NCBI GenBank assembly: GCA_039961635.1
Contig: JABRWB010000090.1
Location: 1 to 52,049, forward strand
Reading direction: 5' to 3'
DNA length: 52,049 nt
Source: a bacterium
Lineage (GTDB): Bacteria; 4484-113; JAGGVC01
Every line of letters begins with the position of its first letter. The first letter of the stretch is position 1. Positions 8,946 to 16,186 of the stretch are shown here, in pieces. Under the pieces are notes generated by a model. That model made no database searches and was not told the origin of the DNA. It worked only from the letters and a program-made list of their open reading frames with translations. A program made the position numbers and the translations under genes.

Positions 8946-10694
8946 CTACTCGTAAAAGTTCTTCAATGTAGTCAGATTTGTACACTCTCGCTCTGTCGCA
9001 ATCCGGCGGTCCATCCAGCCAAGCTGCTCCACCAGATTGCTGGTCATCCACAGAATATTTGCCGGGCCGCCGTCCGCCGCAAGAAACATTTTTGAATGAA
9101 TGTACGCCGGACTGACCGCAACTATCCCGGGGCACTGACGGCCGACGGCGGCAGCTTCAAGCTCGTTCCAAGTTCTTCCATCCGGCGTCACTCCGCGAAA
9201 TCCGCGGTGAACGAGGCCAATCCCGCCGAGCCGCGGAATCGAAAAGGCGAGAATGCTGAATTCGGCGCTCGAGGGATGCGGATGTTCCGCTGCGCTGTGC
9301 AAAAAAAGCCTTTTGATTTTGCCGCCGGACATCAATCTCGCCAGTTTGTTAATCCCGGCGTATTCGCCCCTTCTTCTATCCAAAAGCTCGCCCTTTTTCA
9401 CCGGGAGGTATTCGCAAGAATCCGATGCATGAGCCAGTGTCTTGATCATCTCATAACTTCTACCGCAGTGGCCCGGCCGCTCCGCAGTAACTATGCAAAA
9501 GTGGCTTCCCGCATAGCTTCTGCACCTCGTGCACATGTAAAATGACGCGTTCAGCTCGTCCTGACGCTCTATTTCTTTGTTCCGGTTTTCCTGGTAGGCT
9601 ACTATTCCCGCCCTCAATGACGCAAGGCGCAGCGGATCGCATATTATGTTCACGCAGACTTGTTTTAGGTCGAATTCCTTTCGAATAAGCCCGTAAATCA
9701 ACTTTCCGAGACTCGTGGGGGATGTCACTGCGGGATCGATTTGCATCACGAACCATTCGCGCTGCTCCGCTTTAACCTCGCCCGTACGATTTAGCAGTTT
9801 CAGCAGCTCCCTCTCTATGAAGCCTGTCATCGTGATATCTATATCGCTGTCTCCGATATCGACGATTACTCCGATGTCGCCGAACGTTTCGCCGCGGACT
9901 TCAACGCCGTCCACTCCGCCCATCGAGCGAACAACGAAGAAAGAGTTGTAATTTCCCCCCACCGTACGGAAATTGAGATGGGATTCCTCCTGCGATCTTT
10001 CCGTCGGCGGTTCAAGCAAATGCCATCCTCTAGTACTGTATTCATCAATCAATGCGGATTGGAGTTCGTATTCGGACAGCAGCCTGAAATCCTGGTCCGC
10101 CAACCATCTCTCGCCGATTTGCCATACCGGCACGCGGAATTTTGTTAGCGCAACCAGAATAAGAAGCTCATAATCTGTCGGCTCCCTTGTCAGTAGAATC
10201 AAACCCGGAGGGCGGTAGCCGAAAAATTTTGCAAGCGCTGCGGGATCTTGGTAAACGCCGCCGAAATGATACGCATACCTCACCAGGTTCTGAAAAAAAT
10301 AAACCAGACTGTCGCGGCTTTTGGCTATTTGGACTGTGGCGCCGCGTTTGATTAGATTCGTTATAGGCTCCAGCTCGTCCCAGGCGAACAAAAACGCATC
10401 GGCTGGGACATCGCCGAGATACAGGCTCATAAATTCGGCCTGCCCCAAAAACTCATCCCCGAAGAGCTTGCTTCCTTCAATCAACTCCATCGCCGCCAGC
10501 AGTAACGCCGGGTTGTTTTTGGCGACGTCAACGGCATCGTTCACATCCCCGTCGAGCAGTTGCGATGCATCCGCAAGGTAGCGGTTGATGACAAGCGAGG
10601 GAAGCCCAACTCTGCTGACCGAGGTCTGGCGGAGAGTCGTAACTACCGACCGCACAAGCCCCGCAAACTGGTCGATGCTGACTACTGTCGCCAT
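8946..10694 (-). CDS. Acetyl-CoA synthase (AcsB/CdhC)-like protein lacking the nickel-site Cys-Gly-Cys
   Basis: A 582-residue homologue of the acetyl-CoA synthase subunit of the CODH/ACS complex. The N-terminal Rossmann-like domain is present but shortened (RYAYHFGGVYQDP matches the AMAFGGV region of AcsB). The middle domain is at about residues 245-350. The C-terminal A-cluster domain starts at FYMCTRCRSYAGSHFCIVTAERPGHC. The four 4Fe-4S ligands keep the exact family spacing C-x2-C-x8-C-x9-C (Cys388, 391, 400, 410). Further matches are LDRRRGEYAGIN, RGFRGVTPDGRTW and KMFLAADGGPANILWM. The dinickel motif, Cys-Gly-Cys in TSCGCFE, aligns without gaps to Ser476-Ala477-Glu478 (PSSAEF). The protein can be expected to hold a cubane cluster but not the Ni site, so classical acetyl-CoA synthesis is unlikely. 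No CODH or corrinoid protein gene is in the window. Confidence 0.85.
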   Translation of the reverse strand: MATVVSIDQFAGLVRSVVTTLRQTSVSRVGLPSLVINRYLADASQLLDGDVNDAVDVAKNNPALLLAAMELIEGSKLFGDEFLGQAEFMSLYLGDVPADAFLFAWDELEPITNLIKRGATVQIAKSRDSLVYFFQNLVRYAYHFGGVYQDPAALAKFFGYRPPGLILLTREPTDYELLILVALTKFRVPVWQIGERWLADQDFRLLSEYELQSALIDEYSTRGWHLLEPPTERSQEESHLNFRTVGGNYNSFFVVRSMGGVDGVEVRGETFGDIGVIVDIGDSDIDITMTGFIERELLKLLNRTGEVKAEQREWFVMQIDPAVTSPTSLGKLIYGLIRKEFDLKQVCVNIICDPLRLASLRAGIVAYQENRNKEIERQDELNASFYMCTRCRSYAGSHFCIVTAERPGHCGRSYEMIKTLAHASDSCEYLPVKKGELLDRRRGEYAGINKLARLMSGGKIKRLFLHSAAEHPHPSSAEFSILAFSIPRLGGIGLVHRGFRGVTPDGRTWNELEAAAVGRQCPGIVAVSPAYIHSKMFLAADGGPANILWMTSNLVEQLGWMDRRIATERECTNLTTLKNFYE

Positions 10695-10711: not shown

Positions 10712-12592
10712 CTACATAGCTTCAGGTATTTCGATTCCCAAAAGCCGGAGTCCGGATTCTAGCACGCGCAAAAATGCCTCTACTTCCCGCAGCCTCCAGT
10801 CACGAAGCTCAACATTGGCCTTCAAAACCGGGCAAAAACGGTAAAACTCACCGAACTTTTGGGCAAGCTCAAAGCAGTATCTTGTCAGTACATAAGGGGC
10901 GAGCTGATCCGCCGAAGTCTCGACGACGTCCGGAAATCGGCCTATGGCAAGGGCGAGTTCGTGGTCGTAAACCTGGAGGTTAGGCGGCGGCTGGGCTGAT
11001 CTCCTGGAAGTATCACCTGCTTCGGCCAAAATTCTTTTTGCTCGAACTCCCATATACTGAATGTATGGGGCGGCCTGCCCATTGAAATTCAGCGCTTGCT
11101 CCCAGTCAAAAACCAGCACCTTGTTGTGGTCAATATTGAGCATCGAGAATTTGATTGCCCCGATAGCGACCTTCAGCGCGGTATCTTCTGCATCGGCCGA
11201 ATATCCCTTTTCGCGCGCGATGTGAGCGAGTTTGCTCATCGCTTCGGCAAGCAAATCCTCGAAAAGCACCACCGTTCCCGACCTGCTCGACATTTTGCCT
11301 TCGGCCAAAGTCACAATTTCGTACGGCAGGTGAACGCATTTTTCCGCCTGGGGAAAACCCCAAAGCTTGAGTATGGCGAATATCTGCTTGAAATAAAACG
11401 ACTGCTCGCTTGCAACAACATAAATCGCCCTATCTATGCCGAACTCGCCGAACTTGCGTTTTGCAAGCGCAAGTTCCTTCGTCTGGTAAAGCGACGATCC
11501 GTCGGCCCGCAGGACGACCATTTTTCGCAAATCGCTTCCCGGCAGTTTTGCGTCCAAATCCACGTAAGCCGCCCCTGCGTAATCCCCTTCGCTTCCAATT
11601 TCTGCAATGCCCATTTCGAGCAATTCCTGTACGCAGCGCTTGCCTTCCGACTCGACGTCGCTCTCATAGAAGACATGATCGAATCCGGCGTTCAACAAAG
11701 TGTATATCCGCTCGAACCCTTTTAGGCTCGCAGCGCGAGTGTCCCTCCACAGCCTGACCAGCTCCGCATCGCCCGAGTCCCAGCGGGCGAAAAGCTCTTT
11801 TATTTCGGCATCGAACAGCTCGGGTTCAATTGCATACGGACCGGATTTTGTATTGATTTCTTCGCCGCTTTCAACCTTGTCGGCAAGGGAGTAATACTCG
11901 CCCAGACGCCTTGATTCGTCCTCGATATGGTCGAATTCGCCCGGGAATTTCAAAAGCGCCCAAAGACACTTGATCACATGCGCGCCTATATCTCCGATGT
12001 AATTCGCCCGAATTACTTCGTAACCGGAGAATTCGAGCAGATTGGCAACCGCGGCCCCAAGTGCCGCGTTACGCGTGTGGCCTACGTGGAATACCTTGTG
12101 CGTATTGGGCTGACTGTATTCCACCATTATCCTTTCGGATTTGGCGGCGCCTTTACCGAAATCCAATCCATTTTCCTCGGACGCCTCGATTGCGCAGCGA
12201 GAAACGCAGTCCACATCGAAGTAGAAGTTGACATAACCCGCTTCGCGCACGATTTCGGCTACGCAAGGGAGACTTGTTCCGTTTTGAGCGATTTCATCGC
12301 AAATCCGTTGGGCAAACGAAGCCGCGAGTGCTGCAGATCTCTCCTTCAAGGCCATTTTGGCTTCTTTTTTCCCGACTTTCTCGCTTAGCGCATCAAACTC
12401 GTCTTTAAGCGATTCACTGGCCAGATCGAAACAAACAGTTGTCGAATAACCGGGCTTTCGCGGGGGCTCGATTGGAAGCAGTTTTATAAACCCTTCTGGA
12501 CGGTTGCCCACCTGCGGCAGGGAGCGGCCGATTGCGGCCGCGATTTGCTTCCTGACATCTTTGAGGGGGTTGCCTGCGGTGGACATCTTCAT
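10712..12592 (-). CDS. argS: Arginyl-tRNA synthetase
   Basis: Class I synthetase charging tRNA-Arg. The 626 residues show the N-terminal additional domain, the HIGH-type signature in HKVFHVGHTRNA, the following NYIGDIGAHV, the KMSSR-type loop EGKMSSRSGT, and the C-terminal DALR anticodon-binding helices. The ATG at 12592 is adopted; ATG at 12586 is an alternative two codons in. A consensus promoter 62 nt upstream on the minus strand probably drives this gene and the three genes behind it (ACS-like, acidic protein, nitrilase). Two tRNA-Arg genes lie 3.4 kb away. Confidence 0.96.
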   Translation of the reverse strand: MKMSTAGNPLKDVRKQIAAAIGRSLPQVGNRPEGFIKLLPIEPPRKPGYSTTVCFDLASESLKDEFDALSEKVGKKEAKMALKERSAALAASFAQRICDEIAQNGTSLPCVAEIVREAGYVNFYFDVDCVSRCAIEASEENGLDFGKGAAKSERIMVEYSQPNTHKVFHVGHTRNAALGAAVANLLEFSGYEVIRANYIGDIGAHVIKCLWALLKFPGEFDHIEDESRRLGEYYSLADKVESGEEINTKSGPYAIEPELFDAEIKELFARWDSGDAELVRLWRDTRAASLKGFERIYTLLNAGFDHVFYESDVESEGKRCVQELLEMGIAEIGSEGDYAGAAYVDLDAKLPGSDLRKMVVLRADGSSLYQTKELALAKRKFGEFGIDRAIYVVASEQSFYFKQIFAILKLWGFPQAEKCVHLPYEIVTLAEGKMSSRSGTVVLFEDLLAEAMSKLAHIAREKGYSADAEDTALKVAIGAIKFSMLNIDHNKVLVFDWEQALNFNGQAAPYIQYMGVRAKRILAEAGDTSRRSAQPPPNLQVYDHELALAIGRFPDVVETSADQLAPYVLTRYCFELAQKFGEFYRFCPVLKANVELRDWRLREVEAFLRVLESGLRLLGIEIPEAM

Positions 12593-12594
12593 TC

Positions 12595-12622
12595 TTTACA
12601 ATCCCCGGCAATGTGCTAGGAT
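12595..12622 (+). promoter_or_regulatory. Promoter of the primase-helicase-like gene
   Basis: TTTACA (12595-12600), a 16-nt spacer, and TAGGAT (12617-12622) preceded by TGC, i.e. an extended -10. It is divergent from the argS promoter only 32 nt away. Confidence 0.45.
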
Positions 12623-12653: not shown

Positions 12654-12682
12654 ATTGTAACACCCCCTTTTTAGGGTGTCAA
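12654..12682 (-). promoter_or_regulatory. argS operon promoter (consensus sigma70)
   Basis: On the minus strand: TTGACA (12677-12682), exactly 17 nt, TACAAT (12654-12659). The spacer holds an inverted repeat ACACCC/GGGTGT (12660-12665 and 12674-12679). The promoter overlaps the first codons assigned to the divergent gene, so its true start may be a little downstream. Confidence 0.8.
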
Positions 12683-14946
12683 TCGGATTGGTGGGCGTGC
12701 TAAGAAAGACGAAGTATTCGCTGGAATCAATTACGGAACTGCTCGGGAAGCTTGATCCCGTGCTGATCCTTGCCGAATTGGGAGTCAACTCCTCGGCGAT
12801 CGATCAGAAGAAAGACGGCTTCTTGGCACCTTGCCCCGCGCACAACAGCGGCGCGGACTACACGCTCGTCTACGATTCGGCAAAGAAATCGGCATACTGC
12901 CGGGAGTTCAAATGCCCGGCTAGCAAAGTGACCGGCGGGGGCGGCGATCTTATTTGGCTGTACTCTCTCGTACGCCATTCAACTTACGATTCGGCGATTG
13001 AGCACTGGGCCCGGCGCCTAAACGTCAGGCTCAAATTGGCAAAGGAAGAAGGCGAGATCGTCCGCCGTCCAGAGCAATTCAAATATATCGAAATTGCCAG
13101 ATACACGCGCAGCTCCGACGACAATTCACTGCTGCCGGCGCAGTTCGGCTTCGGCAACCAGCAGGCGGAAGACGGGCGGAAAGTAATAATCGACCGGAAG
13201 CATCTGGAGGAATTTGTCAACAGGTACAAGGTAGACCTGTTTCAGTCACGGTTTTATTTCGAATACGACAACAAGGCCGACATTGACCAGGCATATCAAG
13301 AGGGCAGGCTCTATTTGCTCGGCAATTACTTCATCCCATTTGTCGCCAAATCCAGTGCGGAAATTGTCCATGCCATCAACCAAGCAATTGAAATTGTCGA
13401 ATTCGTAAGGCTTACATACGACATACCGCTGGACGCCATTCACATCAACTACTCCGGAAAGCGCATCGAGATTGAAATCGACTATACGGTCTTCGGGATT
13501 CTGCCGAGGATAAATCTGCATCAATACTACGAAAAAATGACCCGGAAGATTGTCGAGCTCGCATCCAGCGAAGAAGGCAACGGCGTTGACCAATTCGGCC
13601 AGATCGATTTTGAAGCTTACAGATATGACGCATTGACGCAGATAACCGGTAGCGCGATCGCTGAAGGCAAAGGCATACACAAGATCAGGCTGCCTTACAA
13701 CGTTTTCAAGAAGACCAACTATGTCCGCTTGTACGAGATGTCCCAGAAGCGGCCACCGATTGCTTTCCTTGAGCCGATAGAAGCATTCAGTGAGGCCGCA
13801 TCCGCGCTGTTCTCGCAGATCGCGGGCGACATTGAAGGCAGGATGGATGAGGAACGCGACATAGTCGCGGACAAGTTTTATCAGAAACGCGAGCCCGAGG
13901 AATACGACAGCCTTTCCGTATTCGCCCCCCAGCTCTTGCAGCGGTTTTTCAGCGAAAAGCGGCGGATAATCGCTTCACCGTCCAGGCATCTCAACCACAT
14001 TCTCGGCGGCGGATTCCAACCGGGAAGTCTTACAATCGTTGCCGGATTTCCCGGCAGCGGGACCACCTCTTTTTGCCTGTGGTGCACTAATTACATCGCC
14101 CAGCATCATTCTATTCCGTGCGTTTACATCACACTCCAGCAGGGAATAGAGGAGATTTACGTTAAATCGCTGTCGGAAATCGGCGAATTGCCCACGCAGG
14201 AGTTAATCGCGCGCCGCAACGATCCGGGCAGCCTGAAGCGCGACGACGCCTTCAATCGAGCGCTTATGGCTGCGTACGAAAAATACCAGGAGTTCAACCA
14301 AAACGTGACCGTGATCGAAGGAACGGTCGCAACAGACGAGGAATTTTTGCGCTCGACACTTGTCGAACTCCGGCGCCGACACAAGGCCAGGGGCGAGTTG
14401 GGCACTATGTTCGTAGTCTTGGACAGCCTTCAACTGCTGCTCGCAAACATCAACGCGCACACAGACACAACCGTGGACATGAACATCCTGACCAGCCGCA
14501 TAAAGTCCCTAGCCCGCGAGCTGGACATCTCGATTCTGGCCACCAACGAATACCTGCTTGATTACCACCACTTCTATCCGACCAGCGATATTTCCAACAA
14601 GGTTATAGTGAGGTTCTATCAAGACACGCAGTTCGCGGATTCGGTCTGCTTCCTGGTCAGCCAGGACAAGTCGCTGTCGAATATTTCGAAATATTTCCAA
14701 ATGAACTACACCCAGGCCGTCCATCAAAACACGGTGAACGAAATCGTTGCCAAGCTGGGCGAGCTTGAGAAGCAGCTCCGCGACAATCCCCGCACGCGCA
14801 AGTTTTCGGGAGGCTTTACGGTCCTTGAAGTGATTAAAAACCGCGGCGGCAAGCGCGGCAAGGTGCTCTTTATACACGAGCGCGCGATCAGCAGGTTCGT
14901 GCCTCTGGAGTACCGCGATCCGGAAGTGGATTCAGAGGTCATTTAA
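12676..14946 (+). CDS. Zinc-finger / AEP-primase-like / DnaB-like fusion with degraded catalytic motifs
   Basis: A 756-residue protein with the layout of a primase-helicase. A CHC2-type zinc site is formed by Cys53, His56, Cys75 and Cys80. An archaeo-eukaryotic-primase-like domain spans about residues 185-350: YFEYDN at 194-199, YSGKRIEIEI where SGxxGxH is expected, and a final block ending GIHKIRLP. A RecA/DnaB-like domain covers about 435-700 (LGGGFQPGSLTIVAG). The Walker A reads GFPGSGTT (457-464), with Thr463 for the invariant Lys. The SLEM-type catalytic Glu is Gln488 (ITLQQG). Walker B Asp583 remains (FVVLDS). The primase motif II His is Glu, and motif III has lost its Arg and His. So both activities may be gone. 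The start is uncertain: GTG 12676, TTG 12688, GTG 12691 and GTG 12697 are all in frame. No phage or plasmid genes adjoin it. Confidence 0.72.
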   Translation: MSIGLVGVLRKTKYSLESITELLGKLDPVLILAELGVNSSAIDQKKDGFLAPCPAHNSGADYTLVYDSAKKSAYCREFKCPASKVTGGGGDLIWLYSLVRHSTYDSAIEHWARRLNVRLKLAKEEGEIVRRPEQFKYIEIARYTRSSDDNSLLPAQFGFGNQQAEDGRKVIIDRKHLEEFVNRYKVDLFQSRFYFEYDNKADIDQAYQEGRLYLLGNYFIPFVAKSSAEIVHAINQAIEIVEFVRLTYDIPLDAIHINYSGKRIEIEIDYTVFGILPRINLHQYYEKMTRKIVELASSEEGNGVDQFGQIDFEAYRYDALTQITGSAIAEGKGIHKIRLPYNVFKKTNYVRLYEMSQKRPPIAFLEPIEAFSEAASALFSQIAGDIEGRMDEERDIVADKFYQKREPEEYDSLSVFAPQLLQRFFSEKRRIIASPSRHLNHILGGGFQPGSLTIVAGFPGSGTTSFCLWCTNYIAQHHSIPCVYITLQQGIEEIYVKSLSEIGELPTQELIARRNDPGSLKRDDAFNRALMAAYEKYQEFNQNVTVIEGTVATDEEFLRSTLVELRRRHKARGELGTMFVVLDSLQLLLANINAHTDTTVDMNILTSRIKSLARELDISILATNEYLLDYHHFYPTSDISNKVIVRFYQDTQFADSVCFLVSQDKSLSNISKYFQMNYTQAVHQNTVNEIVAKLGELEKQLRDNPRTRKFSGGFTVLEVIKNRGGKRGKVLFIHERAISRFVPLEYRDPEVDSEVI

Positions 14947-14950
14947 TCCC

Positions 14951-15958
14951 GTGAATGAAACGCGGGAGTCTCCGGACAGCCCCATCGAGCCAAGCCGTCC
15001 TTCCGGCAATTCCTACGCCGCCATCCTGCGAATTCTGCTGTCCATCGCCATTGCGGCGGGACTGCTTTGGTTCGTGGTTCGCGGCGTTGACTTGGAGGAA
15101 GTGAAGTCCAGCCTGGTTCGCATCTCCGTTGCCGGGTTTTGGACGGGTGCCTTGCTCTATCTTGCATCATACGTTTTCCGAGCGTTGCGATTCCAGGTGA
15201 TGCTTGCACCATCAAAAATCGCCGTGGGTTTTGGCCGCGCATTCTCGGTAATTCTTTCTTCATTCGCAATCAACTGCGTAGTCCCGGCCAAAGCGGGCGA
15301 CCTTTATAGGGCACTGGATATTTCCCGGAGGCATGGAGGCGGATTTTTCGTCGTTCTTGGGGCCATCATCGCTGAACGAGTTCTTGATTTCGTTGCGGTG
15401 ATTCTGTTTCTTGGATTAGGCATCGCCGGATTGCTTGCCGGCGGCGACGACGTACTGCCCGGCGTCGGATATGCACCGGTTCTCGCGACGCTTGCGGTCA
15501 TCGCAGCTATGGTCGCTTTTGCGGTCCTTTTGGTAGCCAACATCGAACGCGTTATCCGGTTTCTCCTGCCGACAAAATACCGCAACAAGGTCGCCGGCGT
15601 AAAATCCGGCTTTTTGTCCGCGCTGACAAAGCAGTTAGACTTGATTCTGCTTACGCTTCTTCTTTGGATATGCGAGCTTGCTTCTTTCGGAGTGGTGCTG
15701 CGGTCTGTCGGAATCGAACTCGGCGCCGTCCGCATCCTGTTTTCGGCTTCTGCGGCCACCTTGTCAAATGCGGTTCCCTTTACTCCGGGCGGGTTGGGTG
15801 CTTTCGAGCTGGCATCCAAAGCGATACTGGAAGCTTGGAGTTTCCACGCGCCCATTGTCATTGCAGGAATCGCCGCGGTTAGGCTTGTCAATTACTGGGG
15901 GCTCGTCGCGGCGGGAGCGATTGCCGCGGCGATTGAAGCGGCTGTGCCCAAAAAATAG
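14951..15958 (+). CDS. Lysylphosphatidylglycerol-synthase-TM / UPF0104 family flippase-like membrane protein
   Basis: A 335-residue integral membrane protein with about eight hydrophobic segments. Family landmarks are WFVVRGVDLEEV in the first loop, YVFRALRFQVML, the NCVVPAKAGDLYRAL block, GAIIAERVLDF, and NAVPFTPGGLGAFE near the C-terminus. Members form the flippase-like half of MprF or stand alone, and are thought to move lipid or isoprenoid-linked substrates. The substrate here is unknown. The GTG start lies 4 nt after the previous stop without a clear ribosome site, so coupling is likely. Confidence 0.85.
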   Translation: MNETRESPDSPIEPSRPSGNSYAAILRILLSIAIAAGLLWFVVRGVDLEEVKSSLVRISVAGFWTGALLYLASYVFRALRFQVMLAPSKIAVGFGRAFSVILSSFAINCVVPAKAGDLYRALDISRRHGGGFFVVLGAIIAERVLDFVAVILFLGLGIAGLLAGGDDVLPGVGYAPVLATLAVIAAMVAFAVLLVANIERVIRFLLPTKYRNKVAGVKSGFLSALTKQLDLILLTLLLWICELASFGVVLRSVGIELGAVRILFSASAATLSNAVPFTPGGLGAFELASKAILEAWSFHAPIVIAGIAAVRLVNYWGLVAAGAIAAAIEAAVPKK

Positions 15959-16032: not shown

Positions 16033-16106
16033 GCACCCGTAGCTCAGTGGATCAGAGCGTCTGACTACGGATCAGGAGGCCGCAGGTTCGAATCCTGTCG
16101 GGTGCG
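16033..16106 (+). tRNA. tRNA-Arg (anticodon ACG)
   Basis: A full cloverleaf can be folded. The acceptor GCACCCG pairs with CGGGTGC. The D-stem is GCTC/GAGC. The anticodon stem is TCTGA/TCAGG with one U-G pair, its loop CTACGGA placing the anticodon ACG at 16067-16069. The T-arm has the TTCGAAT loop. The discriminator is G and CCA is not encoded. Confidence 0.95.
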
Positions 16107-16111
16107 CTTAT

Positions 16112-16186
16112 GCCCTCGTAGTTCAATGGATAGAACGGGAGTCTCCTAAACTCTAAATACAGGTTCGATTCCTGTCGAGGGTACCA
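16112..16186 (+). tRNA. tRNA-Arg (anticodon CCT)
   Basis: The acceptor GCCCTCG pairs with CGAGGGT, leaving a G1-U72 wobble. The D-stem is GTTC/GAAC. The anticodon stem is GGAGT/ACTCT, its loop CTCCTAA placing CCT at 16145-16147. The T-arm is ACAGG/CCTGT with loop TTCGATT. The discriminator is A followed by an encoded CCA (16184-16186), unlike the tRNA-Arg 5 nt upstream. Both are presumably made from one transcript. Confidence 0.95.

Follow-up and report, generated by a model that had tools for sequence, protein, structure and literature searches.

AEP-DnaB replication proteins (AEP, archaeo-eukaryotic primase) are known in bacteria as active enzymes of mobile elements. In the AEP-TOTE/DnaB_C proteins of cyanobacterial plasmids (WP_330205494, pDongsha4a), an AEP fold is followed by a DnaB-type RecA domain, and the motifs IDID, SGNRGYH, GK(S/T), the catalytic Glu, and LRDS are all kept; these proteins have a middle domain, carry no zinc ribbon, and are encoded beside a PolA-type gene. 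Here, we describe a pseudoenzyme variant of this AEP-DnaB primase-helicase kind, which stands outside the active families and is encoded in a window (the whole stretch of DNA analyzed) of 52,049 nucleotides. A single ORF joins, in this order, a zinc ribbon of the DnaG type, an AEP fold, and a RecA domain of the DnaB type. With the plasmid proteins, the window family shares the linker helix, an extended loop before the KNR motif, and a C-terminal tail, but it does not keep their catalytic motifs.

The preliminary description of this locus reported a long intact gene, and the ORF from 12676 to 14946 (+), which codes for 756 amino acids from GTG12676, is indeed intact. Judging from the orthologs, which start near 'KxTKYS', GTG12697 is the likelier start; residues are therefore numbered here on the 749-amino-acid protein, and the numbers of the preliminary description, which began at GTG12676, run 7 higher. 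The promoter that it considered plausible is a weak candidate, as it matches the sigma-70 pattern at only 9 of 12 positions and 1.8 such matches are expected by chance in the region, so that expression of the gene is putative. For the full chain, the AF2 model has a pTM of 0.47, with low confidence in the linker from residue 382 to 421. The features of the locus are collected in Table 1.

Table 1. Positions in the window of the pseudo primase-helicase gene, its parts, and flanking features
Feature	Position	Strand	Remarks
argS, divergent neighbor	10712..12592	-	Synteny marker, outside the mechanism
Candidate weak sigma-70-like promoter	12595..12622	+	TTTACA-16-TAGGAT, TG-extended; 9/12 match, near chance expectation
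Pseudo primase-helicase gene	12697..14946	+	749 aa; from the ORF list and ortholog starts
CHC2/DnaG-type zinc ribbon, residues 1-112	12697..13032	+	Ligands C46, H49, C68, C73
AEP fold without catalytic residues, residues 115-350	13039..13746	+	AF2, Foldseek, hhalign
Ex-motif I and following helix, residues 213-231	13333..13389	+	IPFVAKSSAEIVHAINQAI; no acidic pair; 10/19 columns invariant
Ex-motif II (S-x-H), residues 250-262	13444..13482	+	His of the catalytic column absent in 10/10
Ex-motif III (RLxR), residues 310-320	13624..13656	+	Arg absent at the catalytic columns
Conserved helix LLxRLFSExR at the DnaB linker helix position, residues 408-424	13918..13968	+	Common to the intact plasmid relatives
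DnaB-type RecA domain, residues 426-749	13972..14943	+	PF03796, E 1.8e-15; Foldseek DnaB CTDs, E 3e-14
Walker A remnant GFPGSGTT, residues 450-457	14044..14067	+	Lys replaced by Thr456
Gln481 at the catalytic Glu site	14137..14139	+	Invariant, 10/10; CAG and CAA codons
Walker B Asp576	14422..14424	+	Retained, invariant, 10/10
Ex-DnaB motif H4 (sDLRES...D-A-D), residues 636-650	14602..14646	+	Now QFADSV; Arg lost
K714-N-R716, DnaB trans-acting Lys/Arg fingers (Bst K418/R420)	14836..14844	+	Kept in 9/10

The C-terminal half of the protein has a DnaB/SF4 fold. PF03796 (DnaB_C, 57.5 bits) is the only Pfam domain above its gathering cutoff, and the equivalog model of replicative DnaB, TIGR00665, gives 59.8 bits against a threshold of 385. 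Compared with the DnaBs of the same genomes and with that of Escherichia coli, the Walker A Lys, the catalytic Glu, the Gln of motif H3, and the Arg of the H4 motif LR(E/D)S are absent from all ten orthologs of the class. Two of these losses had been read from the window protein by itself (Thr463 for the Walker A Lys and Gln488 for the catalytic Glu), and the alignment upholds both: the Lys site of GFPGSGTT holds Thr456 except in G003, where it holds Val, and Lys is found there in no ortholog, whereas Gln481, which phmmer aligns directly with the catalytic Glu262 of E. coli DnaB, does not vary. The Walker B Asp583 described as retained corresponds to Asp576. In addition, G450, P452, G453, and G455 of the P-loop are invariant among the ten proteins, K714 is found in all of them, and R716 is found in nine, with the Arg finger lost in G003. 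The DnaB residues that correspond to K714 and R716 are supplied by the neighboring subunit and complete the ATP site (PMC6391071).

Neither Pfam nor NCBIfam gives a name to the middle domain. On the AF2 model of residues 115 to 350 (mean pLDDT of 89, pTM of 0.86), it belongs as a fold to the AEP superfamily: Foldseek matches the model to archaeal PriS in the PDB (1v33 and 1g71; probability of 0.97 to 0.99, E about 3e-3) and to viral or phage AEP models (A0A7R7G1A9, E 1.4e-13 and TM 0.70; another, E 1.4e-11), and hhalign aligns the domain with L087, a catalytically intact AEP from another genome (probability of 93, E 2.8e-7). The preliminary description had the motif II His and the motif III Arg replaced, and this is the case at the catalytic columns of all ten orthologs, with E, Q, or S at column 258 of motif II and A/S/F/L/Y and Q/A/P/N, but no Arg, at columns 312 and 315 of motif III. 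The losses exceed what had been claimed, since the acidic pair of motif I is gone too. In the helix-anchored register of the ten orthologs, aligned by hhalign to L087, the DxD columns are an invariant Ala217 and Ser/Thr/Asn219; columns 213 to 219 hold no acidic pair in any of the ten, and a single Glu stands in some at the noncatalytic column 216. A register shifted by two residues would have F215 and A217 as the motif I columns, and no acid falls on the catalytic columns either way. In the AEP enzyme PolpTN2, the variant with both motif I Asp residues changed (DID to LIL) served as the inactive control, and the motif II His alone is not diagnostic of an AEP enzyme (PMC5862659). The helix after ex-motif I forms the densest invariant block of the family, with 10 invariant columns out of 19 (213 to 231) compared to 15% of the gap-free columns overall, and such hyperconservation beside a dead primase site suggests that a partner binds at this surface.

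For the N-terminal ribbon, PF01807 gives a weak match on the ortholog L004 (E 0.004), and a profile of the N-terminal half retrieves DnaG N termini in many genomes. The four zinc ligands attributed to the window protein are in place, and CxxH/C...C...C ligands in a ribbon context are present in this protein and seven others; G002 has no ribbon, and G003 has a degenerate one. The emphasis on a kept zinc finger thus stands for the window protein but not for the family, where the ribbon is dispensable: two of the ten orthologs lack it, and conservation is higher in the P-loop glycines, the KNR fingers, and the helix of the dead AEP domain. In other genomes, CHC2-type ribbons are fused to TPR-like repeats (L089, 2025 to 2831; L090, 2108 to 2926; L088, 1072 to 2682), next to an ExeA-like AAA ATPase in the case of L089 and L090, which is apparently another exaptation of the DnaG ribbon.

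Orthologs sharing 32 to 71% identity were found in all nine other genomes of the class, that is, in ten out of ten with the window's genome, this class being the only one to represent its phylum among the sampled genomes. The other 87 sampled genomes contain no ortholog and show DnaB- or DnaG-type matches only. A single-sequence scan of the genome contigs gave no match, and detection required a profile scan. The ORF is long and intact in all ten genomes, broken in G008 only by an assembly N gap, and dN/dS by the NG86 method is 0.057 for L005/L006 and 0.125 for L008/L010. Moreover, Phe215, Ala217, and Gln481 are invariant but encoded by differing synonymous codons, as is Thr456 outside the one genome with Val, so that selection acts on the residue. 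The gene is therefore selected and not decaying, as first proposed, and the absence of essential catalytic residues from both domains is no accident of one strain, given that the same losses recur in every genome of the class and that homologs with intact motifs, sought within the phylum, were not found.

These genomes also encode a canonical replication machinery. DnaG is present in all ten, and a canonical DnaB scores above the cutoff in nine, each time with intact motifs; none was found in G003, whose assembly is 85% complete. In the window's genome, the gene under study occurs once and a DnaB lies on another contig, and the replicative DnaB role is filled by this separate locus. The helicase loader DciA was detected in only three genomes, and weakly, being either divergent or absent, two states that weak matches do not separate; replacement of the helicase loader was considered as a possible reading of this pattern. 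G001 carries a second DnaB-like gene, L101 (G001:C56:20916-22058), on another contig, with 142 bits to TIGR00665.

Outside uncultured bacteria, the closest relatives of the protein are the AEP-DnaB fusions of small cyanobacterial plasmids, and the best match among them shares 24% identity and has no zinc ribbon. In a tree of the RecA domain, the ten dead proteins fall into a single clade (100/100), which joins three plasmid proteins apart from the cellular DnaBs (99/93), on long branches; hhalign matched the window family to the plasmid proteins in the RecA half only. Family phrog_18685 of phages is similar to L004 over the AEP region (E 2.7e-6), and an AEP of a phage that is related to L087 is likewise encoded just upstream of a PolA gene. 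A close intact relative was found in neither viral contigs, phages, nor plasmids: scans of viral contigs with full-length and N-terminal profiles returned ordinary DnaB only or nothing, and tblastn of the zinc ribbon and AEP half against phages and plasmids gave no convincing match. We infer that the gene is likely to have come from a mobile element, plasmid or phage.

The AEP profile also matched genome G127 of family f122, which lies outside the window's phylum. An AEP-RecA fusion of ∼626 amino acids is found there as a full-length ORF in 20 of 24 genomes (G127 and 19 others; L110 to L129), and hhalign aligns it with the window family over both domains (E 4.9e-12 with one sequence and 1.6e-25 with the family; 523 columns). 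As in the window family, the AEP acidic pair and S-x-H are absent from this sister family; unlike in the window family, the P-loop Lys is invariant, the Walker B Asp is mostly Glu, the H1a Glu is variable, and there is no zinc ribbon. The two lineages therefore have the AEP losses in common but differ in those of the RecA domain. No third lineage emerged when 385 genomes were searched with a combined profile: AEP and RecA are fused in the class and in f122 only, and the other matches listed cover the RecA part only. At the two f122 loci that were looked at (L110 and L116), the upstream gene is weakly similar to alkaline phosphatase.

Because catalytic residues have been lost from both halves and yet the gene is under strong selection beside working enzymes, the protein probably has a structural or regulatory role and not an enzymatic one. 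More specifically, we favor, with our confidence evenly balanced, a captured mobile-element primase-helicase that is now a noncatalytic oligomeric cofactor in a DNA transaction. A plasmid or phage replication protein would have been captured, would have lost catalysis before the phylum diversified, and would then have been kept as a single-copy chromosomal gene. Canonical DnaG and DnaB would carry out the chemistry, and the pseudo primase-helicase would assist in replication, restart, or repair. A nonhydrolyzing oligomer best explains a protein that has lost the Lys and Glu but still has its folds, the glycines of the P-loop, Walker B, and the trans fingers; in such an oligomer, the RecA domain would assemble through the retained linker-type helix and the KNR trans fingers. 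Its pocket, with the P-loop glycines and the Walker B Asp, would be unable to hydrolyze ATP and may hold a structural nucleotide, and the surface of the dead AEP domain may now serve for docking, chiefly at the near-invariant helix SSAEIVHAINQAI by the former active site. Ring formation, nucleotide binding, and DNA binding are inferred properties. Several observations speak against this view: the full-chain pTM and the confidence in the linker are low, G003 has lost the Arg finger and two genomes the zinc ribbon, the affinity to the plasmid proteins is seen on long branches, and the conserved neighbors of the gene indicate no replication pathway.

It is more doubtful that the protein is a dedicated noncatalytic subunit of the bacterial replisome, present in at least two uncultured lineages, which oligomerizes with or onto the cell's own DnaB, providing trans fingers, and recruits or regulates DnaG. 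If this were true, it would be a bacterial parallel to CDC45 or to the noncatalytic primase subunits.

We regard it as unlikely that the protein has left DNA metabolism for another pathway, such as RNA/tRNA biology or signaling, with its P-loop pocket used for a different ligand. Exaptation is open to AEP and RecA folds and has befallen CHC2 ribbons elsewhere, argS adjoins the gene in six of the ten genomes (G000, G001, G003, G004, G006, and G007, with one gene between in G007), and two tRNA-Arg genes lie downstream in the window. However, argS is divergent, it was not found near the gene in G002, G005, and G009, the contig of G008, a short one, does not show it, and both halves of the protein keep the folds of DNA replication, with Walker B and the KNR fingers retained. 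Apart from argS and its operon, the neighbors vary among genomes, and the conserved ones, argS and an ACS/CODH-like gene, indicate no replication pathway. The ACS/CODH-like gene (8946 to 10694, −), directly behind argS, codes for a 582-amino-acid protein with an ACS/CODH beta C-terminal domain (PF19436, E 3.7e-36) and is matched at the same place in G001, G004, G006, and G007. A gene for a lysylphosphatidylglycerol-synthase-like membrane protein (14951 to 15958, +) starts 5 bases past the stop codon of the pseudo primase-helicase gene, has a counterpart at the same place in G001 only, and is a probable recent operon partner. The tRNA-Arg genes (anticodons ACG and CCT; 16033 to 16186, +) are separated from argS by ∼3.5 kb, in which the pseudo primase-helicase gene lies.

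Ring helicases are classically poisoned by loss of the Walker A Lys and by a change of the catalytic Glu to Gln. The match of the window family to these substitutions, together with the plasmid replication proteins that are the closest intact relatives of its RecA half, could point to a resident dominant-negative copy, which would confer immunity by co-assembling with the replication protein of an invading plasmid or phage and poisoning it. We consider this distinctly unlikely, as no close intact relative was found among viral contigs, phages, and plasmids, and the universal vertical retention of the gene is unlike that of most defense genes. PADLOC, run on three orthologs, matched no specific defense model, with a weak mads_8 hit (17.5 bits, RecA region) in one of the three.

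Very unlikely, too, is a protein that is still an enzyme, with unusual residues replacing the lost Lys and Glu in the RecA domain or the acidic pair in the AEP domain. The strong constraint on the P-loop glycines, the Walker B Asp, and KNR would fit such an activity, as would the invariant acidic residues nearby (E485, E486, and D262), but the Lys, the Glu, the H3 Gln, the H4 Arg, and the three AEP motifs have been lost together in all ten orthologs, while the motifs stay intact in the canonical DnaBs of these genomes and most of them do so in the plasmid relatives. Finally, the view of the gene as a relic of an integrated mobile element, decaying or accidental, as the plasmid kinship of the RecA half and the zinc ribbon lost in two genomes might suggest, has a negligible chance of being right, being refuted by the comparative data (an intact long ORF in all genomes, dN/dS of 0.06 to 0.13, and a conserved locus with no mobile-element genes found beside it), which only assembly artifacts in ten independent MAGs could overturn.

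The noncatalytic cofactor that we favor would turn a kind of protein known from mobile elements into a cellular part: in every sampled genome of the phylum, the AEP-DnaB fusion is a single-copy gene with both halves stripped of catalysis, and its folds and the helix by the former active site are strongly constrained all the same. The family thus offers a bacterial case in which the conversion of a replication enzyme into a structural component can be tested, as well as a marker of the phylum. Annotation based on domains ('primase' or 'DnaB-like helicase') would assign to it activities that have almost certainly been lost.

Animal Twinkle and phage T7 gp4 likewise carry a primase domain and a DnaB-type RecA domain in one chain, with a zinc ribbon in gp4; their primase is of the TOPRIM type and not an AEP. 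The primase module of animal Twinkle is inactive (PMC10557236), which sets a precedent for the role that we favor, but its helicase is active, in contrast to the window protein, which lacks catalytic residues in both halves. Inactivated RecJ homologs, namely, CDC45 and those of several archaeal groups, are thought to be dedicated structural components of replication (PMC3307487) and set a second precedent. As catalytically dead relatives of DNA-processing enzymes they resemble the window protein; their DHH fold is unrelated, and a defined complex is known for them.
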